From positions 124,001 through 188,000 of the forward strand of contig NZ_BMMD01000003.1 of NCBI RefSeq assembly GCF_014645655.1: DNA of 64,000 nucleotides, read 5' to 3'. Below, piece after piece: positions 1-20,541 of the stretch; within the stretch, counting starts at the first letter, position 1; the number at the start of each line of letters is the position of its first letter. Under the pieces are notes generated by a model. It made no database searches, was not told the DNA's origin, and was given only the letters and a program-made list of their open reading frames with translations. Made by a program: the position numbers and the translations under genes. This DNA comes from Agromyces bauzanensis. Its GTDB lineage: Bacteria; Actinomycetota; Actinomycetes; Actinomycetales; Microbacteriaceae.

Positions 1-675
1 CGGATCGAGCGCCGAGCACGGTTCATCCATGAGCAGCACTCGCGGCCGCACCGCGAGCGACCGAGCGATGCAGAGCCGCTGCTGCTGGCCGCCCGAGAGT
101 CCCGCGCCGGGTGCGCGCAGTCGGTCCTTCACCTCGTTCCACAGGCCGGCCTTGACGAGGCACGATTCGACGAGCTCGTCCTTCTCGCCGTGCGAGACCC
201 GCACGCCGGTCAGCTTGAGGCCGGCGATGACGTTGTCGTAGATCGACATCGCCGGGAACGGGTTCGGCTTCTGGAACACCATCCCGATCTGCTTTCTCGC
301 GTCGACGAGCTTCCGCGCCGGGTCGTAGATATCGTCCCCGTCGAGCAGGACCTCTCCGGCGAGGCTCGCCGATGGCACGAGCTCATGCATGCGATTGAGG
401 ATGCGGAGGAAGGTCGACTTGCCGCAGCCCGAGGGGCCGATCAGCGACGTGATCACTCCCGCCTCCATGGTGAGCGAGACCCGGTCGAGCACCTGGTGGT
501 CGCCGAACCACGCGGTGATGTTGCGGCCCTCGAGGGTTGCGGGGGTCGCGGGCTCGGGTTCGGCCGCCTGAAACGGCTGCTGCTGGATGCCGCGGCCGAA
601 TCGGGGCGGGCGGATGCCTTCCTGCCCGTCAGGGCTCTCGGGAATCACCTCGACGGTGGTGATGTCGTCGGTCAT
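1..675 (-). CDS. pstB: Phosphate ABC transporter ATP-binding protein PstB (3' part beyond the window)
   Basis: Cytoplasmic ATPase that powers the PstSCAB phosphate importer. The 225 codons present carry Walker A (GPSGCGKST), the PstB-type segment [19 protein letters not shown], the ABC signature ([16 protein letters not shown]) and Walker B ([12 protein letters not shown]), where the window ends. The last 60 or so residues are missing. The start is the ATG at 675, preceded by GAAGGAAG. The first 45 or so residues are a non-conserved extension before the usual PstB beginning. It is the last gene of a long minus-strand operon and is separated from pstC-pstA-pstS by six surface-protein genes; the gap to the gene before it is only 57 bp. 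Confidence 0.97.
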
Positions 676-732: not shown

Positions 733-1737
733 TCAGAGCAGGTTCGGCAGGAGCCGCACGACCTCGCCGGTCACCCAGAGCGCGGCGAGCACGGTGAGCG
801 GCACGAACACGATCCAGGTGCGGCGCGGCCCCACGTTGCGGTAGGCCCAGACCGCGACGAACTCGACGACCACGAGGAACTGCAGCGCGAACACGAGCGC
901 CCACGCCATCGACGTGTCGCCGCGAAGCTCGCGGTCGGACTCGGGCAGCGTGGCGAAGTTCGTCAGCCGCACCCCCCTCGGCTGCACCTCGCTCGCCAGA
1001 CGGGCATCCACTCGGGCCACTCCCGTCGGCGAGAAGGGCACGCCGCGGGCGGTGGTGAGGATGACGCGGCTCTCGCCCGGCGTCAACCGTGGCGGGGCCG
1101 GGTCGCCCGCGTAGCGCAGGCCGATCACCTCGAACGTGTGCTCCCCCTGCCCCGTGATGATCGTGAATTCGTCACCGGGCGCGAGTTCTTGGATGCGGGC
1201 GAACGGCCCGCCGAAGGCCGCCGCCCGCCCGAGGATCACGCTCACGCCGACCTGGCCGGGCAGCGAGGTGTCGCGACGATGTCCGGGGCCCAGCTGCGTG
1301 GTTCCCGAATCGGTGCCCTCGACCACGATCTCGCGGATGCCGAGCTTCGGGATCTCCATCAGCGCGACGGGCGCCCCGTCGGGCAGCAGCACGTCGTTCA
1401 CGTCGCCTTCGCTCACCGGGCCGACGCCCTGCTCGAGCTGGGCGCGGAAGGAGTCGCTCAGCTGCTGCTGCGTGACGAAGTGGCGGATCTGGCCGATGAC
1501 CATCACGTTCAGCACGAACGCAAGCAGCAACGCCGAGCAGACGATCAGCGTGCCGCGGATGAACTGCATGCGGGGCGAGAGCACCACCGGTGGGCGTTCC
1601 GGTCGCGGCATCCGTCGGGGTGGCTTCGGCGGCCGGGGCGGCTTCGGAGGCCGGATCTTCCGCGGCGGAGTGGCCGAGACGTCGCCGTACGTGTCGGTGC
1701 TGTCGTATCCGTACGTGTCGAGCTCCATGAGCGTCAT
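733..1737 (-). CDS. Membrane-bound sortase-fold protein lacking catalytic His and Cys (pseudo-sortase)
   Basis: 334 aa. A cytosolic Pro/Lys/Arg-rich tail (residues 24-52) is followed by a membrane segment (about 60-82), an extracellular sortase-like domain (about 120-250), and two C-terminal membrane helices (about 278-298 and 307-328). The sortase frame is clear: MEIPKLGI near 127, LPGQVGVSVILG near 159, FGGPF at 175-179, GDEFTII near 188, VILTT at 225-229. Where sortases have GHR the sequence reads G-R171-A, and where they have LTTC it reads LTTA230, so both the His and the Cys are replaced; an Arg (242 or 246) remains. The start ATG overlaps the upstream stop (ATGA). Transpeptidase activity is not expected. 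A scaffold or binding role in the surface complex encoded by neighbouring genes is inferred. Confidence 0.8.
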   Translation of the reverse strand: MTLMELDTYGYDSTDTYGDVSATPPRKIRPPKPPRPPKPPRRMPRPERPPVVLSPRMQFIRGTLIVCSALLLAFVLNVMVIGQIRHFVTQQQLSDSFRAQLEQGVGPVSEGDVNDVLLPDGAPVALMEIPKLGIREIVVEGTDSGTTQLGPGHRRDTSLPGQVGVSVILGRAAAFGGPFARIQELAPGDEFTIITGQGEHTFEVIGLRYAGDPAPPRLTPGESRVILTTARGVPFSPTGVARVDARLASEVQPRGVRLTNFATLPESDRELRGDTSMAWALVFALQFLVVVEFVAVWAYRNVGPRRTWIVFVPLTVLAALWVTGEVVRLLPNLL

Positions 1738-2558
1738 GCAGGTTCTCCCACCCGCACCGGCTGCGCGAGCCGCCGCAGGAAGTAGCGCACCGCCGCGAAC
1801 CCGAGCCCGACGACGATCAGCACGGCGATGAGCCACGGCGGCGCGAACACATTGGCGTCGCGCGTGAACGACGAGAGCTCGGCGTTGTCGACGACTGGGG
1901 GCGGAGTGAGGCGCGCGTGCACCGTCACGAACGTCCACTGTCCCACCCCTTGGAGGGTGGCGCTGATGGTGCGCTTCTCGCCGGGCACCATGCCGGTCAC
2001 CGTCACGTCGTCGACCTCGCTGATGCGGTGGCCGAACGGACCCGCGAGCCAGAAGTCCGCGGTCGCGTCGATCGTCGACGTCGAGACGTTGCGCACGGTG
2101 AACCACACCTGCAGCTGACCGGCGAGCGGGTTGAGCGATGGCGAGAAGCCCCCCGCGAGCCCGCCGACCAGGAGCACACCACCGAGGCTCACCTCGTCCG
2201 GTTCGGGCGCGGGCGGCGTGGGCGGGGTCTGGTCCACGGCCGACGAGGGCGGGTCGGCGGTGTCGATGAACGAGCCGGATGTCTGCCCGTTGACGTTGAG
2301 CCTGCCGGGCGGCGTGATCGGTGGCCCCGCCGGCGGCGTGATTTGGCGACCGGTCGGGCGTCCGCTGGGCGGCACGGTGGGCGGCGGCGTGGGCACGAGG
2401 CCGTCGCTGATGTCCACGGTCAGGTTTCCGTCGCCCTCGCCCTCATCGGCGAGCGCCGTCTGGCCGGATGCCGCGGTGCCGGTCACGATGAGCAGAGCCA
2501 CGATCAGCGCCCCGCGCAGCGCTATCCGCCGGGCGAAGGTGCGGCGGATGCCGGTCAC
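1734..2558 (-). CDS. Exported, C-terminally membrane-anchored Pro-rich protein of the pst surface module
   Basis: 274 aa, function unknown. It has an N-terminal signal peptide (about 1-37, ending near TALADEG), a long Pro/Thr/Gly-rich spacer (about 50-120), one beta-sandwich-like domain (about 125-225, with WFTVRNVSTSTIDATADFWLA) and a C-terminal transmembrane helix (PPWLIAVLIVVGLGFAAV) with a short basic tail. The layout resembles a membrane-tethered stalk whose folded domain lies outside the cell, like the tail of its upstream neighbour. The GTG start overlaps the upstream stop by 4 nt (GTGA), and its own stop overlaps the pseudo-sortase start, so the three genes are translationally coupled. 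No enzyme motif was seen. Confidence 0.8.
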   Translation of the reverse strand: MTGIRRTFARRIALRGALIVALLIVTGTAASGQTALADEGEGDGNLTVDISDGLVPTPPPTVPPSGRPTGRQITPPAGPPITPPGRLNVNGQTSGSFIDTADPPSSAVDQTPPTPPAPEPDEVSLGGVLLVGGLAGGFSPSLNPLAGQLQVWFTVRNVSTSTIDATADFWLAGPFGHRISEVDDVTVTGMVPGEKRTISATLQGVGQWTFVTVHARLTPPPVVDNAELSSFTRDANVFAPPWLIAVLIVVGLGFAAVRYFLRRLAQPVRVGEPA

Positions 2559-3736
2559 GCACCGCTCCCGCCCGGTGTCGGGCCGGTGCCCACGGCGTCC
2601 TTGTCCCGGTCGTCATCGTGCTCGCCCTGCGCGGGTTCGCCCTGCGCGCGCTCGGCCTCGATCTTGCGGCGGGTCTCCTGCTCGGTGTACGCCATCCATG
2701 CGGCGGCGCGCTTCGCCTCGGCACGTCGCCGCCACTTGCCGAACAGCACGTACAGCAGCACGAGCCCTGCGACCACCACCACCGGCCACGGCGGCGCGAT
2801 GAGCACGGTGTCGCGCGAGGTCTGGGCGACCGCGATGCGCTTGGTCTCGTCGTCGCCCTGGACGAAGGGGTTGAGGGTCACCCAGGGGTTGAGGTATCCC
2901 CAGCTCGCGACCCCGGGCACCTCGGTCTCGAAGGTGCGGGTGAACCCGGGCAGCAGTTCGGGCGCGCCATCGCCCTGTTTGCCCGATGCCGGGGCGCTGA
3001 ACCAGGTGCGCACCCCGAGGGTGACGTTCGAGGCGAGCGCGATGTTGCCGGTGTTCTGCACCGTGTAGAGCACGCGCACGGCCCCGTCGAACGGGTTCCA
3101 CCAGTCGCCCACGTATTGACTGTCGACGCTCGAGATCGTGAGTGCGGCCTGGATGTCGCCTGAGACGCGAAGGTAGAGGCGGGTGCCGAGGCGGCGGTCG
3201 AGGTTCACCTGCTGCCCGGGCGTGACGACCGAGGCGACGATCCCGCCGGGATGGTCGCCGGGCCCCGCCTGCGCGGGCACGTCGACGGTGAACGGGATGA
3301 CGCGCGACTCGCCGGGCTGCAGGTCGAACTGCAGGCGGTTGGCGCCGCCCTCGAAGTGCACCCAGGTGCCGACATCCACCGGCTCGGCGGCGGTCTCGAG
3401 CAGGCCGAATTCGCCGGCGTCGTCGTTGAACGCATCGGTTGCGAGCACCGTGAACGACTGCACCACGGTGCCGGCGTTCTGCACGAGGTACTGGTCGGCG
3501 ATCTGCTGGCCGGGGTCCGCACTGTAGCTGAAGCGGGTGCGGCCGTCTGGCTTGCCGTCGGCGCCCGCCGGCTGCCCCGAGATGCCGATGGTGTCCTCGG
3601 CGTGGGCGGCGGCGGGGTCGCCCACGATCATGCCCAGGAGCGCGGCGCAGCCGAGCAGGGCGACGACGAGGGCCCGGTGGATGCCGCGGGAGGCACGACG
3701 CGGGGCGGAGGATGCGGGGAGGATGACTGCAGTCAC
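2555..3736 (-). CDS. DUF916 / WxL-interacting-protein-like membrane protein
   Basis: 393 aa. Signal peptide about 1-46 (GTG start at 3736), then an N-terminal immunoglobulin-like domain (RFSYSADPGQQIADQYLVQN, later WVHFEGG, LQPGESRVIPFTVDVPA, HPGGIVASV) typical of DUF916/WxLIP. A second beta domain (about 195-300) follows, then a transmembrane helix near 310-330 (WPVVVVAGLVLLYVLFG) and a charged cytoplasmic tail of about 60 residues. In Firmicutes, DUF916 proteins pair with WxL surface proteins in peptidoglycan-associated complexes; here the WxL-like gene is directly upstream. The start is the least certain part: AGGAGG lies 24 nt upstream of this GTG and no closer ribosome site is seen. A hairpin lies in the gap to the upstream gene. 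Confidence 0.8.
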   Translation of the reverse strand: MTAVILPASSAPRRASRGIHRALVVALLGCAALLGMIVGDPAAAHAEDTIGISGQPAGADGKPDGRTRFSYSADPGQQIADQYLVQNAGTVVQSFTVLATDAFNDDAGEFGLLETAAEPVDVGTWVHFEGGANRLQFDLQPGESRVIPFTVDVPAQAGPGDHPGGIVASVVTPGQQVNLDRRLGTRLYLRVSGDIQAALTISSVDSQYVGDWWNPFDGAVRVLYTVQNTGNIALASNVTLGVRTWFSAPASGKQGDGAPELLPGFTRTFETEVPGVASWGYLNPWVTLNPFVQGDDETKRIAVAQTSRDTVLIAPPWPVVVVAGLVLLYVLFGKWRRRAEAKRAAAWMAYTEQETRRKIEAERAQGEPAQGEHDDDRDKDAVGTGPTPGGSGA

Positions 3737-3803
3737 GGGCTGTGCATTTCGCTCGGGTCGCCTCCTGGGAGGCGGTGGTGATGTGGGGGTGGACACGCAC
3801 ATG

Positions 3804-3842
3804 CCGTGTGGGAAAGACGCGAGGCGCGCCTTTCCCACACGG
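3804..3842 (-). terminator. 13-bp perfect hairpin between the WxL-like and DUF916 genes
   Basis: CCGTGTGGGAAAG (3804-3816) and its exact complement CTTTCCCACACGG (3830-3842) flank a 13-nt loop in the 135-bp gap of the minus-strand operon. There is no T-run, so it may be a partial terminator, an mRNA stabiliser or a processing site. Any of these would allow the upstream surface proteins to be made in higher amounts than the downstream membrane genes. Confidence 0.55.
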
Positions 3843-3871
3843 GGATCACGTGGTGACGATCGCTCGAAGGA

Positions 3872-5302
3872 CTACTTCGAGACGAGGGTCAGGGTGACGG
3901 TGGAGTTGTAGACACCCTTCTTCGCGTCGATCGGAGCCTTGAAGGTCAGGTCGGCGTCGAAGTTGGCACCCGCCTCGGTGGTGGAGGAGTTCGGTGCACC
4001 CGAGACGAGCGAGCCGAAGACACCCTCACCGGCGACCTTGGCGAGCGGGTTCACCGTGACGCCGTCCTGGATGCCACCGGCGGCGAGACCGGCGTAGCCC
4101 AGCTGAACGGCCGGAATCACGTGGCCGGCGTTCGTGGCCTCCTGACCCGTGAAGTCCGAGGCGCTGACGTTGACGTCCCAGCCCGAGAGCACGTCGCGGT
4201 CGTCGATCACCGAGAACTGGCCGAGCTTCACCGGCGCGGTCGTCTGGTTACGGCGAACCGGGCCGAGGTCGACGTTCGGGTTGGCCGGGGCCACGATCTT
4301 GAAGATGTTCGAAGCGGTGACCGTGGTGGTCAGGTTGCTCGTGAACGACTTCGCCTGAGTCTCGGTGAGCGTGAAGGAACCCCAGGCCGAGAGCGTCTCG
4401 TCGACGATCGTCGAGGGGGCCGGGCGAGCGACCTTCTCGTAGGCGAAGAGCTTCGCGGCGGAACCGGCCGTGACCTTGCCCGCCACGTCGACCGAGCCGA
4501 CGCCGGCGGCGTCGAACACGACCGTGCCGAGCTCGACGCGAGCGCCGCCCTGGAAGGCAGCCACGTCGAGGGTCTTGTTCGCGTTCGCCGCACCGGCGTC
4601 GATCCCGACGACGGTGCTGTCGGGCGTCGTGGTGAGCGTCGCGGTCTCGGGAGCGACGAGCTCCGACTCGACCACGAGGTCGGCCGCGGGCTCGACGGGG
4701 CCGGTCTCGAGCACCAGCGGCTGGTACGTGTAGGTGTCCGTCGCCGCATCGATGGTGACGGTGCGGTAGACCGAAGCGACCGGGGTCACACCGTTGTTCG
4801 TCGTGAAGGCGAAGCCGACGTTCCACTCGCCACCCTCGGTGAACACCGAGTCGATGCCGCCGTTGTTGGCGAGAGCAAGGTCGCCCAAGGTCAGTGCAGG
4901 CGTGAGGAGGTTGCCGGTTGCCGGGTTGAATCCGCTGTCGTTGTAAGCGCGCCAGCTGCCCGTGCCGCCGTTCATCTCGCTCGGCTTCGCGATGAAGACG
5001 TAGGCGTGGTCATACGTGCCGGCGGCGGTGTAGTCGGTCGGCTTGACCTCGGCGAGGTAGTCCACGGGGTCCATGGCACCGAAGATGTACTGGGTCCGGT
5101 CAAACACCCGGCCTTCCTGCTCGGCGAGCTGGGCGTTCTCATCGAAGATGAAGAACGCGCCCGGGGATCCGTTGGGCTGCGGGTTGACCGGGAAGCCGGG
5201 GCCGCTCGGGATGGCGGCGTTCGCCGCCGACGCGCCGCCGCCCACGAGGGCGAGGGCCAGGGCACCGGCAGCTGCCGCGCGCCACTTCTTGCTGATGTTC
5301 AT
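3872..5302 (-). CDS. Secreted WxL-like surface protein
   Basis: 476 aa. It has a clean signal peptide (MNISKKWRAAAAGALALALVGG, cleavage near ASAANA) and no membrane anchor or sortase signal at the C-terminus. The middle is beta-rich and Thr/Val/Ala-rich. The last 115 or so residues look like a WxL-type domain: LGQFSVIDDRD, then GWDVNVSASDFTG (Trp near 375), and a final strand VYNSTVTLTLVSK in the place where canonical WxL proteins have a second Trp. Start ATG 5302 has AAAGGA just upstream. WxL domains bind peptidoglycan non-covalently in Firmicutes, and the adjacent DUF916 gene is the expected partner. Codon use is more uniform than in the neighbours, suggesting high expression. Assignment to WxL is by pattern only. 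Confidence 0.65.
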   Translation of the reverse strand: MNISKKWRAAAAGALALALVGGGASAANAAIPSGPGFPVNPQPNGSPGAFFIFDENAQLAEQEGRVFDRTQYIFGAMDPVDYLAEVKPTDYTAAGTYDHAYVFIAKPSEMNGGTGSWRAYNDSGFNPATGNLLTPALTLGDLALANNGGIDSVFTEGGEWNVGFAFTTNNGVTPVASVYRTVTIDAATDTYTYQPLVLETGPVEPAADLVVESELVAPETATLTTTPDSTVVGIDAGAANANKTLDVAAFQGGARVELGTVVFDAAGVGSVDVAGKVTAGSAAKLFAYEKVARPAPSTIVDETLSAWGSFTLTETQAKSFTSNLTTTVTASNIFKIVAPANPNVDLGPVRRNQTTAPVKLGQFSVIDDRDVLSGWDVNVSASDFTGQEATNAGHVIPAVQLGYAGLAAGGIQDGVTVNPLAKVAGEGVFGSLVSGAPNSSTTEAGANFDADLTFKAPIDAKKGVYNSTVTLTLVSK

Positions 5303-5351
5303 TGCATTCCTTTTCGTGAGGATTGGAAATTGCTGGAGAGGTGGTGGAGAA

Positions 5352-6476
5352 CTAGCCGGCGAGCGCGGCGCGGAACGGCGTGGTGGTCGACGGCGCGAGG
5401 AAGCCGAACTTCTTCTTCACCGAACCGGCCTGACCCGGAAGGGCGCTCTGCGTGTTGCCGAGCTTCTGGGCGGCGTTGCTCACGACGCTGGCGAGGTTGG
5501 GGTCGTACTTCGCGTTGCCGACGGTCACGCGGGCGTTCTCCACGACGATGTAGGTGTCGCGGCCCCACGTGGTGTTGGCGTAGAACGCGGCGTTCGGCAC
5601 CATCGAGGTGCCGGTGCCCGTCACCGCGGAGGTGCCGGCGACCGGCGAGCCGATCTTGACGCCCGCGCCGCGGCGGTCGATGCCGGCGCCTGTGTTCTGC
5701 GCCACCCACTGCGCCGCCGACATCGCGGTCACGGCGTTGGCCGGGAAGACCGAGCCGTCGGCGAGGTGCGACGTGTCGTGCTCCTGGCCGACCACGACGC
5801 AGCCGCCCTCGGAGACCTCGAGCACGCTCGCCTCGGTGGCGCCGATCTTCGCGATGAAGTCCTTGCGCGTGCCCGAGCCCGACTGCGGGATCACGGGAAC
5901 GACCGTGACGCCGCCGACCTGCGTGATGGTGCACTCGAACAGGCCCTTGAGCGTCGCCTGGTCGATGTTGTCGAACGCCGCGTTGTCGCCGCCCGAGTGC
6001 GCGTACGAGAGCGCGTCGCGCCCGAACGGGATGTAGAGCAGCTCGCCGCTCGCGTTGACCGCCGCGCCCGACGACGAGCGTGCGATGTCGACCTGGCCGG
6101 TGATGGTCACGTTCGCGGGTGAACCCGGCGTGGCCGAGGTATAGGGCGCGCCGTCGATCGAGCGGCTGAGCGCCTTCACGCCGTCGCTCGAGCCGTTGGG
6201 TCGGCCGAAGCGCGGGCCGTTCGACTTCGCCTGAATAGTGACGGAACCGGTTGCGTCGAACGACGCCGCGAAGAGGCTGTTGGCCTGGGAGCGGACGGAC
6301 GCGCCGGAGATGGTGGTGCCGTTGGCGAGGGCGTTCAGGACGTCCTGCAGTGTGTCGGAACCCACGACGACCGGACCATTCGCGACCGGCTCGGCGCTCG
6401 CCGGGGAGGCGACTGCGATCAGCGAGACGGCCACGCCGAAGGCGGCGGCCGCTGCTACAATCTTCTTCTTGTTCAC
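5352..6476 (-). CDS. Secreted PstS-like periplasmic-binding-fold protein
   Basis: 374 aa. Signal peptide about 1-28 (KKKIVAAAAAFGVAVSLIA, ASAEP cleavage). The mature protein looks like a PstS-type binding fold: VVVGSDTLQDVLNAL at the start, then VDIARSSSGAA, YIPFGRDALSYA, TLKGLFECTI and PVIPQSGSGTRKDFI, where PstS proteins hold phosphate with a Ser/Gly/Thr loop. There is no lipobox and no C-terminal helix, so it is probably released or held by other surface proteins. GTG 6476 was chosen because AAAGGAAAG precedes it and the signal peptide begins there. It could carry phosphate or another ligand. Confidence 0.75.
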   Translation of the reverse strand: MNKKKIVAAAAAFGVAVSLIAVASPASAEPVANGPVVVGSDTLQDVLNALANGTTISGASVRSQANSLFAASFDATGSVTIQAKSNGPRFGRPNGSSDGVKALSRSIDGAPYTSATPGSPANVTITGQVDIARSSSGAAVNASGELLYIPFGRDALSYAHSGGDNAAFDNIDQATLKGLFECTITQVGGVTVVPVIPQSGSGTRKDFIAKIGATEASVLEVSEGGCVVVGQEHDTSHLADGSVFPANAVTAMSAAQWVAQNTGAGIDRRGAGVKIGSPVAGTSAVTGTGTSMVPNAAFYANTTWGRDTYIVVENARVTVGNAKYDPNLASVVSNAAQKLGNTQSALPGQAGSVKKKFGFLAPSTTTPFRAALAG

Positions 6477-6534
6477 AACTTTCCTTTTCTCGAGGGATCT
6501 GGTGTGACCAACGCTCGCTCTGGAAAGCGGGCGT

Positions 6535-6564
6535 CTTGGCGGCTCCCCGAGGGGGGCCGCCAAG
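6535..6564 (-). other. Hairpin in the 190-bp gap upstream of the secreted PstS-like gene
   Basis: CTTGGCGG and CCGCCAAG flank a C-run/G-run core (CTCCCC..GGGGGG) that extends the stem with one mismatch. It lies about 60 nt upstream of GTG 6476 in the longest gap inside the pst operon (6477-6666). It could be an internal terminator or an mRNA 5' stabiliser. No convincing -10/-35 pair was found in this gap. Confidence 0.5.
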
Positions 6565-6666
6565 TCTGTGGGGCGTCGATGTCCCACACCGAGGCTGGCT
6601 CGGCGAGGTGAACACTCGGCCGTCGTCTTGCGAAGGAACGCTGTACGGGGGCTGTGCAACAGGCAT

Positions 6667-9336
6667 TCACGCGCGCCTCCTGATGCGTGTCATCACCGGC
6701 ACGGCCAGCGCGGTCACGAGGCCGGCGGCCAGCCCGATCGGCACGGCGGCGGCGGCCGGGCCGATCTCGGGGTCCTCGGGGGTCGGTGCACCCGCCAGCG
6801 CCCCCGAGGCGTCACCGGTGGCCGCCGGGTCGGTGACGGCCGACGTAGTGCCCGCCGGCGCCGGCGCCGGTTGCTGCGCCGAAGGCGCCGGCGGGGTGAG
6901 ACTGCCGCCACTGCCCACGTACGCGCCCGACGACGGGGACGACGGAGACGACGGAGACGACGGGGACGACGGGGACGTCGGGAACGTCCCCTGCTCGATC
7001 GCATCCGCCGCAGCGAGGGCCTGGTCCACCCACGACTGCGGCAGCGGCGCGTACCCGGGCGGGAGTTCGCCGACGTCGGTGCCCGGCGTCTGGCCGTCGC
7101 GGGCGGCGTACCGGATGAGGTCGGCGTACACGGCGCGCAGCTCGGCGTCGGTCTGCTTCGGGTTCAGCGCGGCGTACACCGGCATGGTGAGCGGATAGGC
7201 GGTGGGTGCCGCTTCGGCCGCCTTGCCGCCGAAGTCGTACTGGAGCACCTTCGGCTGCGCCGCCGTGGGCGTCATGGCCGCGGCCGCCGCCGCGAGGCTC
7301 TCGCGAGTGGGGGTCACGTACTCGCCCGCCGGGTTGCGCAGCGACGCGGTCACCGTCTGGTAGAGGGCGGCGGCCGGCGCGGTGGTCACGCCGATCACCT
7401 TCTGGCTGCCGAACAGCTCGCGCGGCGTCTTTCCGAACTTCGGGGGCACCGCGAACTTGTCCCAGCCGCCGAGCAGCAGGCCGTCGCCGCGCAGCACGCG
7501 ATAGGCGCCATCGGCGAAGCTGTTGGTGAACGGCCGGTTGGTGACGAGGCTGATCGGGCCGGTGCCGTTGGCCGGGTCGCTCACGGTCGTGTCGGGCTTC
7601 TCGATGGGGTCGGCCTTGGGAAAGCTCTCGGTCGGCAGCGCCAAGCCGTGCCCGGTCGGATTCACCTCGGGGTTGGTCGAATACCAGGGATTCACGATCA
7701 TCCCCCACTCGTCGGGCGTGCCGTCGAGCCAGGCCCGGGCGTCGGGGTCGGCGAGCACGTACTCCCACAGGCGCATGGCGAGGTCGGAGCGACCCGAGGG
7801 CATGAGCATGTCGGCCGCCGACGCCCCCGAGATGATCTGGGCCGACCATTCCGGGTCGTTGATCTCGCGGAACTCCGGGTCCTGCACGATCGTGCGCGCG
7901 TTCTTCCCCGGCTTCGAGAAACTCTCGAAGCCGATGTGCGACCTGTCGGCGCCCCCCGGCAGCGATTCCCAGTACGACGCGGTCAGCAGCTTCGCCACGA
8001 GTCGCGGCGTGAGCTTCATCTCGGTCATCGGCAGCGCCGCGCGGGCCTTGTACTCCTCGGAAGCCTCAGTCGGATGCGGCTGCCGGTCGATCGCGAACGA
8101 GATCGCGATGCCCGACAAGGCGACGGGCGCGTAGGCCACCGGGTCGGCGGCGTCGGCCACGCGGCTCAGGTCGAGAGGGCGCGACGTGAATGCCAGCGGG
8201 CTCGGCGCCGTGCCCGCGGCGCGCGCCAGCGCATCGGTCTCGTTGCCCTGGCTGAGCACGAACGGGGAGCCGTTCTCGCCGAGGCAGAGCCGCGGCTGCC
8301 ACGACGCCACCGCCCCGGCGACGAGCTCGCTCCCCGCCAGCTGTCGCTCTGCTGCGCCGATCTCGCAGCGCACGCCGAGCGGCTTGAACTCGAGCTTCAC
8401 CGCCAGGTGGTGCTCCCAGGCATCCCACCACAGCCCCGACCGGTCGATCTGCACAGATCCCGAGTCGTGCGTGCCGCGCGGGATGATCACGAGCCAGCAC
8501 GACTGACCCACCACGGTGTCGTCGGGCTGCGTGACCGGCGTCCCGCAACCCAGACCGGTGGACTGCAGGGCCGTCTGCACCTCGAACGGCACCGAACCCG
8601 AACCGTCGGCCCCGGCGCCCGCCCACGGGACCTCGTTCGTGGTGAACGCGGAGAAGAACGGATTCGTGTTCAGGTTCACGTACTCGGTGCCGGTCTTCTG
8701 CTTGATGTTGCCCGCGTCGTCGGTCGTGAGGTTGTTCACCACGCGATCCGGCGGAGCCAGCTTCTCGTCGACGATGCCCTCGGGATTGGCGGCGACGAAC
8801 GGGATGCCGGTGTACGTCGGCACGAAGAAGTTGTCAGCAGGATCGGTGTACGGCACGTCCCGTTCAGCGACCGCCTCATCCGCCACGGCGTAGCCGTCGC
8901 GCGCCGCGCCCCAGCCGAGCGTGCCGCCGTACTGGCACGTACGACGATCGGGGTGCCCCGGGTGCTCGGGATCCTCGCCCCAGCACTGCGCGACCTGCAG
9001 GAAGTTCGCTCCGCCATAGTTGCCCGAGGGGCGCACCGACGACTTGCCGCCCTTCCAGCGCACCTCGATGCCCTGCGACACGAGGTCACGGGTCTGCGAG
9101 ACCGTGACCTCGAGATCGGGGAACGGCGCCCCCTCGGGGTTCAGCGCGTCGTGCGCGTTAGTGAGGCTCACCGCGCTCGAGGTGATCGTCTCGTCGGCCG
9201 CGGCCGCGGGTTCGGCCGGCACCACGGCCCCGCCGAACCCCACGGCGCCGGCCACCAGCAGGCCGACGACCAGCCCCGAGAAGCCGGCTCCGAGCCAGAC
9301 CGCGCCGGCCGGGGCATCCGTCGACCTCGTGCTCAT
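6667..9336 (-). CDS. Giant membrane-anchored PstS-like extracellular protein
   Basis: 889 aa. An N-terminal hydrophobic segment (about 12-45) acts as signal or anchor. A large extracellular region follows, rich in Trp and Pro, with a Cys-containing N-terminal half (QCWGEDPEHPGHPDRRTC). A binding-fold-like half follows: ERQLAGSELVAGAVASW, PLAFTSRPLDLS, LMPSGRSDLAMRLWEYV, YPLTMPVYAALNPKQTDA. It then has a Ser-Pro-Ser repeat spacer, a Pro/Ala spacer and a C-terminal transmembrane helix ending in RIRRRA. No lipobox. ATG 9336 overlaps the pstS stop (ATGA), so it is co-translated with pstS. The binding-fold call rests on short motifs and the ligand is unknown. Confidence 0.75.
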   Translation of the reverse strand: MSTRSTDAPAGAVWLGAGFSGLVVGLLVAGAVGFGGAVVPAEPAAAADETITSSAVSLTNAHDALNPEGAPFPDLEVTVSQTRDLVSQGIEVRWKGGKSSVRPSGNYGGANFLQVAQCWGEDPEHPGHPDRRTCQYGGTLGWGAARDGYAVADEAVAERDVPYTDPADNFFVPTYTGIPFVAANPEGIVDEKLAPPDRVVNNLTTDDAGNIKQKTGTEYVNLNTNPFFSAFTTNEVPWAGAGADGSGSVPFEVQTALQSTGLGCGTPVTQPDDTVVGQSCWLVIIPRGTHDSGSVQIDRSGLWWDAWEHHLAVKLEFKPLGVRCEIGAAERQLAGSELVAGAVASWQPRLCLGENGSPFVLSQGNETDALARAAGTAPSPLAFTSRPLDLSRVADAADPVAYAPVALSGIAISFAIDRQPHPTEASEEYKARAALPMTEMKLTPRLVAKLLTASYWESLPGGADRSHIGFESFSKPGKNARTIVQDPEFREINDPEWSAQIISGASAADMLMPSGRSDLAMRLWEYVLADPDARAWLDGTPDEWGMIVNPWYSTNPEVNPTGHGLALPTESFPKADPIEKPDTTVSDPANGTGPISLVTNRPFTNSFADGAYRVLRGDGLLLGGWDKFAVPPKFGKTPRELFGSQKVIGVTTAPAAALYQTVTASLRNPAGEYVTPTRESLAAAAAAMTPTAAQPKVLQYDFGGKAAEAAPTAYPLTMPVYAALNPKQTDAELRAVYADLIRYAARDGQTPGTDVGELPPGYAPLPQSWVDQALAAADAIEQGTFPTSPSSPSSPSSPSSPSSGAYVGSGGSLTPPAPSAQQPAPAPAGTTSAVTDPAATGDASGALAGAPTPEDPEIGPAAAAVPIGLAAGLVTALAVPVMTRIRRRA
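6929..6973 (-). repeat. In-frame 9-bp tandem repeat (Ser-Pro-Ser units)
   Basis: Five consecutive copies of GACGACGGR on the plus strand encode (SPS)n in the giant PstS-like protein. It lies in the stalk between the folded part and the C-terminal helix. Copy-number change would alter stalk length without a frameshift. Confidence 0.8.
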
Positions 9337-10991
9337 CGTTTCACCCCGCTCGACGACGACCCGGCGGTGGCTTCGGCACGTCGCAGCCGTTGCGACAGAT
9401 ACGGGGGCAGCGCCACCGCGGCGAGCAGCAGCAGCACGGCGCCGAGCATCACCGACTCCTCCCAGCCCCAGCCGTTGTCGCCCACCGTGAACGGCGAGGC
9501 GATCGCTGCGCCGGCCACCGTGGAGCCGCCGTCGGAGATCAGGTTGCCGTTCTCGTCGTACACCGCCCCCCCGGCCCCGCCCGCCGCCGCCTCGGCAGCC
9601 GCGGCCGCCGGATCACCGGTGGCGGCACCGCCGGCCGCGCTCCCGTCTGCGGCTGCGCCCGCCCCGCCGGTCGCGGCACCCCCGCCGCCCTTCCCCGACA
9701 CCGGAGTCTCTTCGCGAGCACCGGCCGTGCCCGTCGTGCACTGGGCCGGTCCGCGCTTGTCGCACGCGGCCGGCTGGTGGGCGGTCAGGGCGAGCTGGTT
9801 CTTGTCGGGTGAGTCACCCGGCTTGAACGTGGGGTTGTTGCACGAGTTCGGGTCGACGTTCGCCGAGCCGGCGCCCGGGATGCGCCTGATCTGGTCGAAG
9901 CCCGCGAGCACGAGATTCATCGGCAGCGGCGAATACCCGAGATCGGGGGCCTGCTGCTGGCCCTCGCAGAGGAAGTAGCTCGCGAACGCACCGAGCGTCG
10001 CGCCCTTCGCCGTGGTGAACACGGGGGCGACATCCGGTCTCACCTCGGTCGGCACGATCACGTAGGAGTAGCTCGAGAGCGGGTACGTGCGAGGGTCGGC
10101 GTTGTTGTACACGCCGTCGAGGATCTGCGTCAGGTAGTCGGCCGAGGCGGGATCGGTGTTGATCCGGGCTTTCAGGAGCGCGACGGCCACCGAACTGGCC
10201 GTCGGCTCGATGTAGTAGTCGGCGGCGTTCAGCACCTTCGCGACCGGGAAGCCCGCTTCCAGCGCGTAGGAGTACTCGACGTACGTGATCGCGCCCTCGC
10301 CGTAGCCCTGGGCCACGTACCCTGCGACCTGCGCCGAGCCGCTCTGCGCCTTGCCGTTCGGCGGTGTCGGGAACTGCGAGGTCATGCCGGTGGTCCACAG
10401 ATTGGGGTACTGCTTCGACATCCACAGCGTGAACTGCGCGGTCGTTCCCGAACCGTCGGAGCGCACGATCGGCACGATCGCCTTGTCGGGCATCGCCAGC
10501 CCGGGGTTGTCGGCCTGGATCGCCCTGTCGTTCCAGTTCCTGATCGCGCCGGAGAAGATCTTCGTGATCACCTCGCCCGACAGCCGCAGGTTCGTGACCC
10601 GCTTGCCGCCGATGACGAGGTGGTACATGAACGCCGTGCCACCGGCGACGATCGGCATGTACGCGTACCCGCGAGGCGACACCTCGGGCGCGGAGCCGTC
10701 TTCTGGTCTCGCCTGGAACGGGATCTCGCTCACCGCGAAGTCGACCGTGCCCTGGATGAAGTCGCGGCGACCGGCCGACGAGCCGACGCCGGTGTAGTTC
10801 ACCTGCATGCCGTAGTTCGTCGCCACGTTCGACTTCCATTGGTCGATCGCGTTCTGGGACCAGGTCGACCCGGTGCCGGTGATCGGCTCATAGGTGGTGG
10901 CGGCGCTCGCGGGCAGCGCGATGCCCACGGTGAGCAGCAGGGTGCCGAGCACGGCGACCAGCCGCGTCCGGCGGTGCTTCAGCGGGTTCAT
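9333..10991 (-). CDS. pstS: Phosphate-binding protein PstS with C-terminal membrane anchor
   Basis: 552 aa. High-affinity phosphate receptor of the PstSCAB importer. Signal peptide (VAVLGTLLLTVGIALPASA) without a lipobox Cys, then a full PstS domain: ITGTGSTWSQNAIDQW, GSSAGRRDFIQGTVDFAVSEIPF, FSGAIRNWNDRAI, VRSDGSGTTAQFTLW and GAITYVEYSYAL. After about residue 400 comes a Gly/Ala-rich spacer and a single C-terminal helix (SVMLGAVLLLLAAVALPPYL) with a basic tail. The receptor is therefore tethered from its C-terminus instead of by a lipid. ATG 10991 overlaps the pstA stop (ATGA). Confidence 0.95.
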   Translation of the reverse strand: MNPLKHRRTRLVAVLGTLLLTVGIALPASAATTYEPITGTGSTWSQNAIDQWKSNVATNYGMQVNYTGVGSSAGRRDFIQGTVDFAVSEIPFQARPEDGSAPEVSPRGYAYMPIVAGGTAFMYHLVIGGKRVTNLRLSGEVITKIFSGAIRNWNDRAIQADNPGLAMPDKAIVPIVRSDGSGTTAQFTLWMSKQYPNLWTTGMTSQFPTPPNGKAQSGSAQVAGYVAQGYGEGAITYVEYSYALEAGFPVAKVLNAADYYIEPTASSVAVALLKARINTDPASADYLTQILDGVYNNADPRTYPLSSYSYVIVPTEVRPDVAPVFTTAKGATLGAFASYFLCEGQQQAPDLGYSPLPMNLVLAGFDQIRRIPGAGSANVDPNSCNNPTFKPGDSPDKNQLALTAHQPAACDKRGPAQCTTGTAGAREETPVSGKGGGGAATGGAGAAADGSAAGGAATGDPAAAAAEAAAGGAGGAVYDENGNLISDGGSTVAGAAIASPFTVGDNGWGWEESVMLGAVLLLLAAVALPPYLSQRLRRAEATAGSSSSGVKR

Positions 10992-12238
10992 TGCGGTTCC
11001 TCCAGCGGTTCGGCGGATGCCGCGAGGCGGCGTGCTGCGGCGGCATCCATGCGTTCGACGTCTCGTTCCGACGCGGCGCGCGCGGCGCGCTGCTGGCGGG
11101 GCGACAGGTCTCCGGGGCCCCGGCCGCCGATGACGCGGGCGATCGCGAACAGCGCCAGCACGAGCAGCAGCAGCACGGCGGCCGCGCCGAAGCCGCGCGC
11201 GATGATGTTCGGCTCGGGCGAACGCACGAAGTCGAACACCTGCAGCGGCAGCGAGATCATAGGGCCCTCGAAGGGATTCGTGTTCATCACGCTCGTGACG
11301 CCCGACGTGAGCAGCACGGGCGACGTCTCGCCGATGCCGCGGGCGGTGCCGAGGATCACGGCGGTGACGAGCCCCGAGCGCGCCGTCGGCAGCACCACCT
11401 GCCACACCGTGCGCCACTTCGACGCGCCGAGCGCGTACGACGCCTCGCGCAGGCTCCCCGCGACGAGGCGCAGCACCACGTCGGACGCGCGCACGATGAT
11501 CGGCAGCATCATCACCGTGATGGCGAGCGCTGCCGCGAACCCTGATCGCTGGTGCGTGAAGACCAGGATGACCGCCGAGTAGATGAACAGGCCGGCCACG
11601 ATCGAGGGCAACGCGGTCATGGCGTCGACGACGGTACGCACGAACCGCGCGAAGCGCCCGCCCACCTCGTTGAGGAACAACGCCGTGACGATGCCGAGCG
11701 GAATCGAGATCGCGAGCGCGATGCCGATCTGGATCAGCGTGCCGACGATCGCGTGCGCGACCCCGCCGACGTCGAGGCCGTCGAGCGGGCCTGCGAACTC
11801 CATGTCCTGGAAGAAGAAGTTCAGGTGCAGCAGGGCGGGGAATCCGCGCACCAGCGCGTACGCCACCACGAAGATCAGTGCGGTGCCCAGGATGACCCCG
11901 GCGCTCGCGAGCACGACCGTCATCACGCGATCGATCACCTCGCGCCCGTCGGAGGTCGTGCTCACCAGCAACGCGTAGATGCCGATGAAGCACAGGAACG
12001 CCACGACGACGAACCCGACGAAGCCGCTCAGGGGCGCGATCCAGCCGAACAGCAGGATCGCGATCGCGAGGGCGCCGGCGACGGCGCCCAGCAGGGCGTA
12101 CCGGTCGTCGAGCCGCGCCGAGCGCAGCCGGAGGCGAGGGCCGACCTCGATGCCGTCCTTGACCGGCACGGCCGTGCGCGCCTCAGCCTCGCTCGTCGCC
12201 TCGTCGGGCTCGAGCTGCTCGAGGGTGGTCAGCGACAT
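10988..12238 (-). CDS. pstA: Phosphate ABC transporter permease PstA
   Basis: Inner-membrane half of the phosphate channel, 416 aa. A hydrophilic N-terminal extension of about 40 residues precedes two extra helices (LLGAVAGALAIAILLFGWIAPL and VGFVVVAFLCFIGIYALL). Then comes the normal PstA core with the EAA-type loop LREASYALGASKWRTVWQVVLP that contacts PstB. The family is usually about 300 aa, so the N-terminus is longer than typical. ATG 12238 (TGATG with the pstC stop) was preferred; an in-frame GTG three bases upstream is equally possible. Confidence 0.95.
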   Translation of the reverse strand: MSLTTLEQLEPDEATSEAEARTAVPVKDGIEVGPRLRLRSARLDDRYALLGAVAGALAIAILLFGWIAPLSGFVGFVVVAFLCFIGIYALLVSTTSDGREVIDRVMTVVLASAGVILGTALIFVVAYALVRGFPALLHLNFFFQDMEFAGPLDGLDVGGVAHAIVGTLIQIGIALAISIPLGIVTALFLNEVGGRFARFVRTVVDAMTALPSIVAGLFIYSAVILVFTHQRSGFAAALAITVMMLPIIVRASDVVLRLVAGSLREASYALGASKWRTVWQVVLPTARSGLVTAVILGTARGIGETSPVLLTSGVTSVMNTNPFEGPMISLPLQVFDFVRSPEPNIIARGFGAAAVLLLLVLALFAIARVIGGRGPGDLSPRQQRAARAASERDVERMDAAAARRLAASAEPLEEPQ

Positions 12239-13305
12239 CACACCTCGCTCTCAGCGCCGGAGCGGGAGCGTGCGACGACCGACGCGGCGGTGAAGTTGAT
12301 GACGAGCGTGACCAGGAACAGCACGAGGCCCGCCGCCATCAGCGCCGAGAGCGCGAACTCGCTCGCCTCTCCGTACCGTAGGGCGATGAGCGCGGAGACC
12401 GAGTTGCTGCCGGTCTTCAGCACCTGCCAGTTGATGGAGAAGATCGGCGAGATGATCATGTAGACCGCGATCGTCTCGCCGAGTGCCCGGCCGAGGCCGA
12501 GCATGGTGCCGCCGATGATGCCGCCGCGGCCGAACGGCAGCACGACCGCGGTGATCATGCCCCAGCGCGTCGCGCCGAGTGCGTAGGCCGCCTCGCGTTC
12601 GCCCGCCGGAGCCTGCATGAAGGCCTCGCGCATGATCGAGGTCTGCGTCGGCACGACCATGAGGGCGACCACGACACCGGCGATGAAGGCCGACGAGGTG
12701 AACGCACTGGCATCCGTCAGCGGTTCGCCGGTCTGGTCGGTGACCGCGAAGAAGGGGATCCAGCCGAAGTAGGTCGAGATCCAGCGCGACACGGGAATGA
12801 TGTTCTCCTGCAGGAAGAAGACCCCCCACAGGCCGAACACCACGCTGGGCACCGCAGCCATCAGGTCGACCACGGTGATCGACCACTGCTTGAGCTTTCC
12901 CGTCAGCACCTCGGAGATGAGCATCGAGGTGCCGAGCGCGAGCGGCACCGACACGCACATGGCGATGACCGCGATGGTGATCGTGCCGAACAGCACCGCC
13001 GCGATGCCGAACTCGCCGGTCTCGGGCGACCACTGCTGCTCGACGAGGAACCCGAATCCGGTCACCTGCAGCGCCGAGCCCGCACGCAGCGAGAGGAACA
13101 GGCCGACGGCGAGCATGATGGCGACGGTCGCACCGCCCGCCGCGAAGGCGACCGAACGGAAGATCGAGTCGGACCGCGAGGGCCTGGGCGTCAGCGATCG
13201 CGGCTCCTGCGGCGGCTGTGCCGACGGGCCCTCCTCGGCGAGGATCACCGTGGTGGTGACCTCGCCGGCGCTGCGATCGTCGCTCACGACCGCTCCGATC
13301 GACAT
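12238..13305 (-). CDS. pstC: Phosphate ABC transporter permease PstC
   Basis: 355 aa permease partner of PstA. Six membrane helices, the EAA-type loop (EREAAYALGATRWGMITAVVLP), and the PstC segments AAVPSVVFGLWGVFFL and GRALGETIAVYMI are visible. The start was moved to the ATG at 13305 because the reading frame further upstream encodes a non-conserved Arg-rich stretch and GAGG precedes this ATG. It is the first gene of the pst operon; 150 bp separate it from the kinase gene upstream on the same strand. Confidence 0.95.
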   Translation of the reverse strand: MSIGAVVSDDRSAGEVTTTVILAEEGPSAQPPQEPRSLTPRPSRSDSIFRSVAFAAGGATVAIMLAVGLFLSLRAGSALQVTGFGFLVEQQWSPETGEFGIAAVLFGTITIAVIAMCVSVPLALGTSMLISEVLTGKLKQWSITVVDLMAAVPSVVFGLWGVFFLQENIIPVSRWISTYFGWIPFFAVTDQTGEPLTDASAFTSSAFIAGVVVALMVVPTQTSIMREAFMQAPAGEREAAYALGATRWGMITAVVLPFGRGGIIGGTMLGLGRALGETIAVYMIISPIFSINWQVLKTGSNSVSALIALRYGEASEFALSALMAAGLVLFLVTLVINFTAASVVARSRSGAESEV

Positions 13306-13380: not shown

Positions 13381-13400
13381 GGTGATTGCGGAAGGTGAAC
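13381..13400 (-). promoter_or_regulatory. Candidate PHO-box-like repeat upstream of pstC
   Basis: On the minus strand the segment reads GTTCACC-TTCCGCAA-TCACC, a repeated TCACC with a 13-bp period about 80 bp upstream of pstC. Actinobacterial PhoP boxes are GTTCACC-type repeats with an 11-bp period, so the match is imperfect. No clear -10 was found nearby. Confidence 0.25.
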
Positions 13401-13455
13401 GCTGGATTTCGCCCACACGAAGGACGACTGGACGGCACGTTGCGAACCGAGCGAC

Positions 13456-15237
13456 TCAGTCGGCTTCGGCCCCAGGAGTGGGAGTGGGAGTGGGCGTTGG
13501 CGTTGGCGTGGAGGGCGGCGGGATCTCGGCCTCGAGCAGCGTGACGGTGGTGCGCAGCTCCACCGATGCGCCCTCACCCGGGTCGGTGCCCACGATCGTG
13601 CCCACGGCGACCCCCGCGGTGAGCCGTGAGCCGATCGCGACCGTGAATCCCGCCCGCTGCAGCGCTGCCAGGGCTTCGGCGCGTGAGAGGCCGACCACGT
13701 GCGGCACCCGATTGAACCCCGAGGCGACCGTGAGCGAGACGGCTGTTCCTTCGTCGAGGGTCGTACCCGCCTCGGGCGATGAACCGAGCACCGTGTCACT
13801 GGGACGCTCGGACTCGACGACGGTGAGCTCGCCGACGACCAGGCCGGCATGGGCGAGTGTGCGCGTCGCGTCGGCGAGGGTCGAGAGCGCCAGATCCGGC
13901 ACGACGACGCGAGCGACTGCGGGGATCGTCTCCACGGGCGCGCTCGGCGGCGGGACGGCCGGCGGCGGCGCGGCGGCCGGCGGCGGCGCGGCCTGCTCCC
14001 CGGACGGCGCCGGAGTCGGCACCGGAACGGCCGGGGAGCTCGCTGCGACGACACCGAGGATGGTCGCGACCGTGAGGAGCAGAACGACACCCGACGCCCA
14101 TGCACCGGCAGTGCTGCGCCCGCGCCCGGCGACGAGACGCCGTTTCCCGCTCCGCTTCGGAGCGCCTCGACGGCGCACTGCGCCCGCCCGCTGCACGGCG
14201 GTGACTTCGGTGGTCGGCGACCGCGTCGGCACCGTCGTGCTCCCGAGCACGCGCGTCACGGCCTCACGCTGGGGCCTGCCGACCGCCGAGGTAGCCGACG
14301 TCGCCCGCGTGCTCCCGGGCTCGGTCTTCGGCTTCGCGCCGGAGGCCCCGGCGGCGGTCTCGAGTTCGGCCCGCATCTCGGTGGCCGAGGCGAACCGGTC
14401 CGCCGCATCCTTCAGGAGCGCCCGTACCACGATCCGGTCGATCCGGCGCGGAATGCGCGAGTCCATCACCGACGGCACCGGCGGCGGGGCCTCGAGGTGG
14501 GCGCGCATCGTCTCGGCCGGAGTGGCGCGCGGGAACGGCGCGTGTCCGGTGAGGGCGAAGTAGAGCACCGCACCCGTCTGGTAGAGATCGCCGCGCTCGT
14601 CGACGGCGCCCCCGCGAACCTGTTCGGGAGACATGTAGTTCACATTGCCGATCACCCCGGCGCGGGCCGAAACGTCGGTCACCGACTCGCTGCGCAGGAT
14701 ATCGGTGCCGAGGGCGGCGCGGCCCGCGGCATCCGCAAGTCCGAAGTCCAGCAGTCGCACGCCGTCGGTCGTCAGGCGACCCGATGGATCGAGGGAGACC
14801 ATGACGTTGGCCGGCGACACGTCGCGATGCACGAGACCCGCGCCGTGCGCCGCCTCGAGCGCGCGCAGCACGCCGTCGATCACGTCGATCGCCTCGTCGA
14901 CGCTCAACTGTCCGTGCCGCTCGACCTGCTCCGAGAGACTCCGCCCCTGAGCACGCTCGAGGGCGATCCACGCCACCGGCTCCCCGGTTGCCTCATGGGT
15001 GCCGACCCCGAGCACGCCGGCGATGTTCGGATGCCGGAGTCCCTGGGCACGTCGTGCCTCCTCGAAGAACGCCTCACGCGCAGCCGGCCGGTTCGACAAG
15101 TGCGGGTGCAGGAGCTTCAGGGCGACGGATGAACCGTCCGTCGTATCGAGCGCCGCGAAGACCGAGGCCGAACCGCCTGTGCCGAGCAACTCGCCGAGGC
15201 GGAACCGCCCGGAGATGAGGCCGGACGGTTGGGTCAT
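13456..15237 (-). CDS. PASTA-domain Ser/Thr protein kinase (PknB-like)
   Basis: 593 aa membrane kinase that probably senses peptidoglycan fragments. Cytosolic kinase domain about 10-290: Gly-rich loop GTGGSASVF, VALK (Lys41), HRD (137-139), DFG (164-166), SPEQ. The catalytic loop reads HRDVSPAN where PknB-type kinases have HRDVKPxN, so the usual Lys is Ser141. A basic, Thr-rich juxtamembrane region precedes one transmembrane helix (about 385-410). A Pro-rich spacer and two PASTA-like repeats (VVVPDLALSTLADA..., RVPHVVGLSRAEAL...) follow, and the C-terminus is a Thr-Pro run. The start ATG 15237 overlaps the transglycosylase stop (ATGA), so the two are coupled. Confidence 0.93.
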   Translation of the reverse strand: MTQPSGLISGRFRLGELLGTGGSASVFAALDTTDGSSVALKLLHPHLSNRPAAREAFFEEARRAQGLRHPNIAGVLGVGTHEATGEPVAWIALERAQGRSLSEQVERHGQLSVDEAIDVIDGVLRALEAAHGAGLVHRDVSPANVMVSLDPSGRLTTDGVRLLDFGLADAAGRAALGTDILRSESVTDVSARAGVIGNVNYMSPEQVRGGAVDERGDLYQTGAVLYFALTGHAPFPRATPAETMRAHLEAPPPVPSVMDSRIPRRIDRIVVRALLKDAADRFASATEMRAELETAAGASGAKPKTEPGSTRATSATSAVGRPQREAVTRVLGSTTVPTRSPTTEVTAVQRAGAVRRRGAPKRSGKRRLVAGRGRSTAGAWASGVVLLLTVATILGVVAASSPAVPVPTPAPSGEQAAPPPAAAPPPAVPPPSAPVETIPAVARVVVPDLALSTLADATRTLAHAGLVVGELTVVESERPSDTVLGSSPEAGTTLDEGTAVSLTVASGFNRVPHVVGLSRAEALAALQRAGFTVAIGSRLTAGVAVGTIVGTDPGEGASVELRTTVTLLEAEIPPPSTPTPTPTPTPTPGAEAD

Positions 15238-16638: not shown

Positions 16639-17055
16639 ACGCCCTCGCGGCAGCGTCGCGTCGCTGCCCGAAGCTCGGGGACCGGTCACGATATCCTCAT
16701 TCGCTCTCGCGCCGGCGCGGGTCTCCGACGACCGAGTGACCCGCGGCGCCCGAATTTGGGCGGCGGTGCGGCACGGGCATCTTGCGATGCCGAGGCCAGC
16801 ATTCGGTCGCTCGGTGAGCAGACGGAATGGCGGTGTGGAACAAGGGGTGTCCACGAGGTGACGGCTCGGGAGCCGGCCGGTGTGATCCAGGCGGCGGACA
16901 GCGGAGTTCCGGAGGAAGCGCCGCATCGTGTCCCTCGAACTGGGTGCGCGCCGGGCGCCGGGGAGGTGTCTCCCCCGGGCGAGGGAGTTGTCTCCCCCGG
17001 GCGGCGGTGCGACACTGGACGGGATCGCTCTGGGTCTACGCCCGAACGGAACTTC
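16639..17055. other. 417-bp divergent intergenic region with a 22-bp-spaced direct repeat
   Basis: It separates the minus-strand kinase operon from the plus-strand M23 peptidase. The only structured element is a 15-bp direct repeat TGTCTCCCCCGGGCG at 16967-16981 and again at 16989-17003, a spacing of two helical turns, 52 bp before the peptidase start. No coding potential was recognised. Confidence 0.6.
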
Positions 17056-18620: not shown

Positions 18621-18657
18621 GCGGGTTGAGGAGGTGCGCCAGCGCCTCGAAACCCGC
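18621..18657. repeat. REP-like palindrome, family 1
   Basis: GCGGGTTGAGGAG...CCTCGAAACCCGC, an imperfect palindrome eight bases after the M23 peptidase stop. The same core (GGTTGAGGAG...CTCGAAACCC) recurs twice at 45179-45271. It may act as the terminator of the peptidase gene. Confidence 0.7.
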
Positions 18658-18751
18658 CGCCCGTGCCACCCCGCCGCCGCCGTCTGGGATCCCGGACGCA
18701 CACCCTGCGGCATCCGTTGTCGCCGGATGCCTCGTGCGGTGTGATCGAGGC

Positions 18752-20461
<1,710 letters not shown>

Positions 20462-20541
20462 CGGATGTCGCGCCAGCGCGCCCAGAGTGCAGTTGCCGCC
20501 CGCCAACCGGCGCCGACTGCACTCTCGAGGGGGCGCACCCC

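Follow-up and report, generated by a model that had tools for sequence, protein, structure and literature searches.

The closest described relatives of the locus reported here are the PstSCAB phosphate importer, the Csc and WxL-WxLIP clusters of Firmicutes (PMC1534035, PMC10599100), the class E sortases of actinobacteria (PMC5148588), and PstS-1 and PstS3 of Mycobacterium tuberculosis. We analyzed a window of 64,000 nucleotides (nt) from Agromyces bauzanensis (assembly GCF_014645655.1, contig NZ_BMMD01000003.1, positions 124,001–188,000 of the forward strand). On its minus strand, pstC, pstA, and pstS are followed by genes for a giant PstS-like protein, a small PstS-like protein, a WxL-like protein, a DUF916-like protein, a proline-rich protein, and a pseudo-sortase, and then by pstB. 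This order on a single strand is as claimed in a preliminary description of the locus, whose interval of 733–9336 is exact for the six genes between pstS and pstB. The conserved unit is wider: the six genes form one unit with pstC, pstA, pstS, and pstB, and in Microbacteriaceae also with an upstream gene for a PASTA Ser/Thr kinase. Judged by its sequence, the importer is a Pst transporter, and the window operon is an additional Pst-type importer carrying its own envelope module. No description of such a combination of Pst with a surface module was found in the open-licence literature.

All four components of the PstSCAB importer are present in the module, with PstC, PstA, and PstS above their NCBIfam cut-offs and PstB just below. 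Unlike the known importer, the module has the order pstC-pstA-pstS with pstB last, includes extra conserved surface genes, is an additional copy beside another pst, and has a PstS held by a C-terminal helix instead of a lipid.

The linkage of these genes was compared across genomes. Among 396 genomes of the order, 31 matched the pseudo-sortase at E ≤ 1e-15, one of them (G187) through an ordinary sortase with catalytic residues, and 30 matched the giant protein at E ≤ 1e-10. Both proteins were shared by 28 genomes; G080 and G164 had only the pseudo-sortase, and G178 and G287 only the giant. In a phylum sample, 65 of 296 genomes matched the pseudo-sortase at E ≤ 1e-15, many via a sortase-domain stretch only, and nine exceeded 100 bits, including A. 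bauzanensis itself and one genome of the same genus. A scan of named genomes yielded 174 relatives, and the best 80 of these 174 were kept. These include loci from Agromyces, Microbacterium, Cryobacterium, Leifsonia, Herbiconiux, Subtercola, Cellulomonas, Propionicicella, Arthrobacter, Streptomyces, Planotetraspora, Actinoplanes, Kineosporia, and Acidimicrobiia bins. One of the carriers is Microbacterium testaceum StLB037 (L098). The named and order sets overlap: for six named loci, the contig is identical to that of a locus from an order genome. The pseudo-sortase gene was followed by pstB on the same strand in 78 of the 80 named loci (pstB lies upstream in L139, and L104 is at a contig edge) and, as determined by script, in 28 of 30 order loci (the remaining two being L053, a start-trimming artefact, and L071, a real exception); two ordinary sortases (L073, L074) were left out of these counts. 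Three rearranged orders were found, namely sPBP-DUF916-pSrt-pstB-pstC-pstA-pstS, sPBP-giant-pstC-pstA-pstS-pSrt-pstB, and pstC-pstA-pstS-giant-pSrt-pstB-sPBP-DUF916 (sPBP, small PstS-like protein; pSrt, pseudo-sortase). Since the gene set recurs across other Actinomycetota, also in such rearranged orders, it is beyond chance.

The small PstS-like protein was matched in 21 of 30 module genomes versus one of 30 comparison genomes; the nine module genomes without a match belong to f9, f16, and, in one case, f20. The single comparison match is a remnant in G287, where a decayed locus (L225, 3586–7502) holds a module-type pstB, a truncated giant gene, and a small PstS-like gene, and where pstC is absent. 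The preliminary description had considered that the six genes might lie mostly away from pst genes in related genomes. Of the four proteins searched genome-wide, the pseudo-sortase and the giant proved to be tied to pst, and the only match of the small PstS-like protein among the comparison genomes still has a module-type pstB; the DUF916-like family is generic. The proposal that a surface assembly is produced along with the phosphate importer gains support from the conserved linkage, the co-occurrence, and the domain evidence.

PstC and PstA cross-match, so that two hits of the PstC family search were counted as one permease set. The A. bauzanensis genome had six hits, corresponding to the window, a plain pstS-pstC-pstA-pstB set on contig C5 (L016), and a Pst-like set on contig C9 (L015). 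Four hits were obtained in 28 of the 30 module genomes (three in G249) and two hits in 28 of the 30 comparison genomes (four in G012 and G107). Of the 30 loci at the best non-module PstC matches (~3.9 kb each), 28 hold pstS, pstC, pstA, and pstB, and two hold pstC, pstA, and pstB only. A pstC tree with 65 rows placed 29 of the 32 plain rows on a long, supported branch (length 1.87, support 100/98), separate from 31 of the 33 module rows, and the window pstC falls outside this plain clade. The exceptions among the module rows are L143_m, which is the neighboring plain pstC and lies beside the plain clade, and L071_m, a long branch weakly grouped with the non-module rows L015, L206, and L207. 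The module label requires two changes on the tree, and no bootstrap tree had one. The rows L015, L206, and L207 form their own branch and represent a third, more distant Pst-like set, found in A. bauzanensis (G000:C9), G012, and G107. In two bins (L133, L143), a plain-type pstS and pstC lie directly downstream of the module operon, and the small PstS-like and DUF916-like genes follow pstB.

For the binding proteins, alignment columns were named after the phosphate contact residues of Escherichia coli PstS, which we take to be T10, S38, D56, R135, S139, G140, and T141. The counts cover 71 module PstS, 76 giant, and 68 small PstS-like proteins, with the giant columns read on a profile alignment; L076, L089, L108, L112, L118, and L153 were dropped as the same contigs as others, as was L220 (identical to L016). 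Module PstS proteins kept S38, R135, S139, and G140 in 71/71 cases. Their D56 column holds Glu (63/71) or Asp (8/71), and their T141 column Ser (47), Thr (20), or Ala (4). A lipobox occurs in none of the 71, and a C-terminal transmembrane (TM) helix in 68. The giant comprises an N-terminal beta-sandwich (residues ~50–330), a PstS fold (residues 328–783) that superposes on 319 of the 334 residues of the M. tuberculosis PstS-1 chain in matches to the Protein Data Bank (PDB), a proline-rich stalk, and a TM helix, the C-terminal helix being present in 72/76 giants. Compared with PstS-1 and PstS3, the N-domain, stalk, and TM helix are additions, and most contact residues are lost in the giant: T10 is replaced by Glu and S38 by Glu or Asp in all 76, D56 by Ser in 61, and S139 by Ala in 68, and G140 and T141 are gapped. 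The small PstS-like protein matches the plain PstS profile with a probability of 96.6 across 186 columns. Its D56 column is Ser and its R135 column Pro, Leu, or Ile, each in 68/68, and an invariant Arg precedes the D56 column by two residues. One relative (L145) exceeds the Pfam cut-off for PBP_like_2 and bears fn3/immunoglobulin (Ig) domains. Phosphate is the most likely ligand of the system; with Glu56 in the module PstS and a changed pocket in the small protein, a different oxyanion or a phosphorylated fragment would also be possible. Eight Microbacterium strains carry one more PstS-like gene directly after pstB (L048, 16028–17498; L077, L101, L102, L103, L105, L107, L112, L115; L048 and L112 are one strain), which is a further binding protein beside the same transporter.

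In the pseudo-sortase family, the catalytic His column is Arg in 104/104 members and the catalytic Cys column is Ala in 100 and Gly in four, whereas two ordinary sortases retained both catalytic residues. The 80 named loci were collected with a pattern containing this Arg; the 30 order rows, collected without it, also had Arg in 30/30, with Ala in 26 and Gly in four. Compared with class E sortases, as covered in the available sections of PMC5148588, the protein shares the sortase family and the first conserved His (kept in 104/104), but differs in the replaced catalytic His and Cys and in predicted C-terminal helices, and the window copy reached 56.4 bits with the class E model NF033747, below the cut-off of 160. 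By these replacements, the pseudo-sortase is predicted to be catalytically dead, and the module is not an active sortase system.

The remaining surface genes recall the Csc and WxL-WxLIP clusters, which in the available sections of the two papers likewise combine a WxL-like protein with a DUF916-type protein with a C-terminal TM helix and a small anchored protein. An invariant D-x-R and the first motif, GW-x-L/V, were kept in the 28 aligned WxL-like members, nine of which matched PF13731 at E ≤ 0.1 (best 9e-4); the window copy gave no PF13731 match. The DUF916-like family matched PF06030 in 36 of 37 members at E ≤ 0.01 (best 3.6e-11), and the window copy did so at E 0.0036, under the family cut-off. 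Ig domains occur in some WxL-like proteins and in two fused PstS-like proteins. The window giant, small PstS-like, WxL-like, and proline-rich proteins had no above-cut-off match in Pfam or NCBIfam. The module differs from the described clusters, as far as those sections go, in being actinobacterial and embedded in pst and in usually having one WxL-like protein. Furthermore, its second Trp-x-Leu site has no Trp in any of the 28 aligned members, DUF3324 and HBD were absent among the 15 families matched by any of the 37 DUF916-like members at E ≤ 0.01, and an LPXTG/LAXTG-like motif was found in only 2/63 proline-rich proteins. The words phosphate, sortase, and Actinobacteria are absent from the main text of PMC10599100. 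In terms of its domains, the module resembles Pst with an added Csc/WxL-type surface unit and is not a full WxLIP cluster.

With moderate confidence, we favor a membrane- and wall-tethered device for the capture and relay of phosphate. The secreted small PstS-like protein and the stalked, helix-held PstS would bind phosphate (or a similar oxyanion) within or outside the wall, while the WxL-like, DUF916-like, and proline-rich proteins may position and hold the assembly in the peptidoglycan. The giant pseudo-PstS and the dead sortase in the membrane could act as non-covalent scaffolds that keep loaded binding proteins by PstCA, and the groove of the dead sortase perhaps grips C-terminal segments without cutting. 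PstCA would then import the ligand with PstB, and in Microbacteriaceae the PASTA kinase may couple the device to the state of the wall. The capture or channeling of phosphate through the wall, already suggested in the preliminary description, is something we infer.

Other explanations have to be weighed against this one. The giant could instead be part of a sensor or gate, docking unliganded on PstCA and setting the transporter or a signal, e.g., via the PASTA kinase; the module would then sense phosphate or wall state instead of importing through the wall. Its PstS fold with a largely changed site, its C-terminal helix, and the kinase adjoining pstC in 9/9 module Microbacteriaceae genomes are consistent with such a role, but we regard it as unlikely, as the loci retain PstC, PstA, PstB, and a PstS that has the main ligand residues, and such a kinase was not matched upstream in 6/7 f9 loci (L071 being the exception). 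Slightly less probable still is an importer for another ligand, such as a phosphorylated fragment of a wall or plant polymer or another oxyanion, which the small PstS-like protein, together with the WxL part, would capture and pass to PstCAB. The substitutions in the small protein with its invariant Arg, the frequent Glu56 of the module PstS, and the presence of another Pst set in the cell would fit this; the four residues kept in every module PstS, and scores of PstC, PstA, and PstS above the phosphate-equivalog cut-offs, argue for phosphate. That the genes encode a Csc-like surface adhesin layer, merely co-transcribed with a Pst paralogue and without a physical tie to transport, appears very improbable: the resemblance to Csc clusters and the Ig domains point in this direction, but among the extra genes, those kept most constantly are of PstS origin or encode the dead sortase and do not belong to the WxL part, pstB stays beside the dead sortase in rearranged loci, and the decayed locus retains pstB, a truncated giant gene, and the small PstS-like gene together.

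Several observations weigh against the capture and relay device itself. The R135 column of the giant is still Arg in 57/76, so that some anion contact is possible, and equivalents of Arg135 and Asp56 are absent from the small PstS-like protein, which may therefore bind another ligand. L071 lacks pstB beside the pseudo-sortase. DUF916-like relatives often occur in several copies per genome, in module and comparison genomes alike. In Streptomyces-type loci and in most f9 loci, the WxL, DUF916, and proline-rich genes were not found, suggesting that the wall part is dispensable for the core, and the long/no-DUF916 pattern is based on few lineages. The pattern of PHO boxes upstream also differs from that of plain pst. 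In the available part of PMC7866108, PHO boxes upstream of pstS are two 11-nt direct repeat units. A tandem GTTCACC box (at least 12 of 14 positions) was found upstream of plain pstS in 25/27 loci (one locus counted twice), but in only 3/30 module operons (0.3% in shuffles). Single GTTCACC units occurred in 11/30 module leaders, with 0.58 expected. From these counts, the phosphate-starvation control proposed in the preliminary description is weakly supported; phosphate control of the module is possible, but it would be unlike that of plain pst.

The features of the locus are listed in Table 1. The mostly 4-nt overlaps described earlier were seen at five of nine junctions (pstC/pstA, pstA/pstS, pstS/giant, DUF916/proline-rich, proline-rich/pseudo-sortase). 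The others are gaps of 154 nt (giant to small PstS-like, ~190 nt with the likelier start GTG 6476), 49 nt (small PstS-like/WxL-like), 33 nt (WxL-like/DUF916-like), and 57 nt (pseudo-sortase/pstB). The listed pstC reading frame start at 13416 is probably too early, and ATG 13305 is preferred.

Table 1 Features of the pst locus and its upstream neighbors in the A. bauzanensis window.
Feature	Position	Strand	Evidence or remark
pstC, permease (module type)	12238..13305	-	NCBIfam TIGR02138, 234.3 bits, cut-off 196.45
pstA, permease	10988..12241	-	NCBIfam TIGR00974, 217.2 bits, cut-off 193.45
pstS, long stalk and C-terminal membrane helix, no lipobox	9333..10991	-	NCBIfam TIGR00975, 205.4 bits, cut-off 205
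Giant anchored pseudo-PstS, 889 aa	6667..9336	-	Beta-sandwich N-domain, PstS fold, proline-rich stalk, TM helix
Small secreted PstS-like binding protein, altered pocket	5352..~6476	-	Start codon inferred; profile match to plain PstS
WxL-like secreted protein	3872..5302	-	PF13731 in 9 of 28 aligned members, not in the window copy; D-x-R invariant, GW motif kept
DUF916-like (WxLIP peptidoglycan-binding domain) membrane protein	2555..3838	-	PF06030
Proline-rich secreted protein, C-terminal membrane helix	1734..2558	-	Hydropathy; related proteins in Microbacteriaceae and other groups
Pseudo-sortase, three predicted membrane helices, catalytic His to Arg, Cys to Ala	733..1737	-	Pfam Sortase, 9.5e-11
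pstB, ATPase	1..675, extends 230 bases beyond window edge	-	Best-scoring family NCBIfam TIGR00972, 337.5 bits, just under equivalog cut-off 343.2
PASTA Ser/Thr kinase, upstream of pstC	13456..15237	-	Pkinase and two PASTA stretches
Possible lytic transglycosylase	15234..16109	-	SLT_2, E 1.1e-4, 22 bits, under cut-off 24.3
Single PHO-box-like GTTCACC	13394..13400	-	88 nt upstream of pstC ATG

The non-kinase part of the PASTA kinase scored at least 62 bits next to pstC in all nine module genomes of family f1, which is Microbacteriaceae (family name taken from named relatives), and at most 41.2 bits in 29 non-module f1 genomes. The putative transglycosylase gene overlaps the kinase gene by 4 nt in the window and also lies close to the operon in L229, L071, and L051, but this linkage is not general. 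Both neighbors would fit a device built into the wall, although neither is a general companion of the module. A peptidase M23 gene (16900–18612) is divergent from the transglycosylase-kinase-pst operon, with similar neighbors in L227 and L228. After pstB, at ~65 nt and on the same strand, an FKBP-type isomerase lipoprotein gene follows before the window edge (L005, 8778–9704); among the loci examined, it was seen in this genome only. The operon lies between hutH (L005, 5983–8664) and hutU-hutI (window 18626–21828), a placement shared by two other genomes of the genus (L045 with L227, L014 with L228). On the fetched side, hutH was also present in two more Agromyces loci (L075, L047), and no hut match was obtained at Agromyces seonyuensis (L050) or at loci of other genera.

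To our knowledge, little is understood about how monoderm bacteria gather nutrients across their thick wall. Here, cultured genera (Agromyces, Microbacterium, Cryobacterium, Leifsonia, Streptomyces) share a conserved gene set in which two dead proteins, one a sortase and the other a phosphate-binding protein, accompany a transporter. This makes the question of a wall-spanning uptake device approachable by a few gene deletions and pull-downs. Tentatively, and with more doubt than for the capture and relay device, we propose that the module may represent an undescribed trans-wall nutrient uptake machine of monoderms, in which a Pst importer is combined with binding proteins at different depths of the envelope, a pseudo-PstS/pseudo-sortase platform in the membrane fastens the stalked binding proteins to PstCA, and the outer part is anchored to peptidoglycan by a WxL-type unit. 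If true, this machine would be a thick-wall analogue of TonB- or Sus-like reach-through systems.

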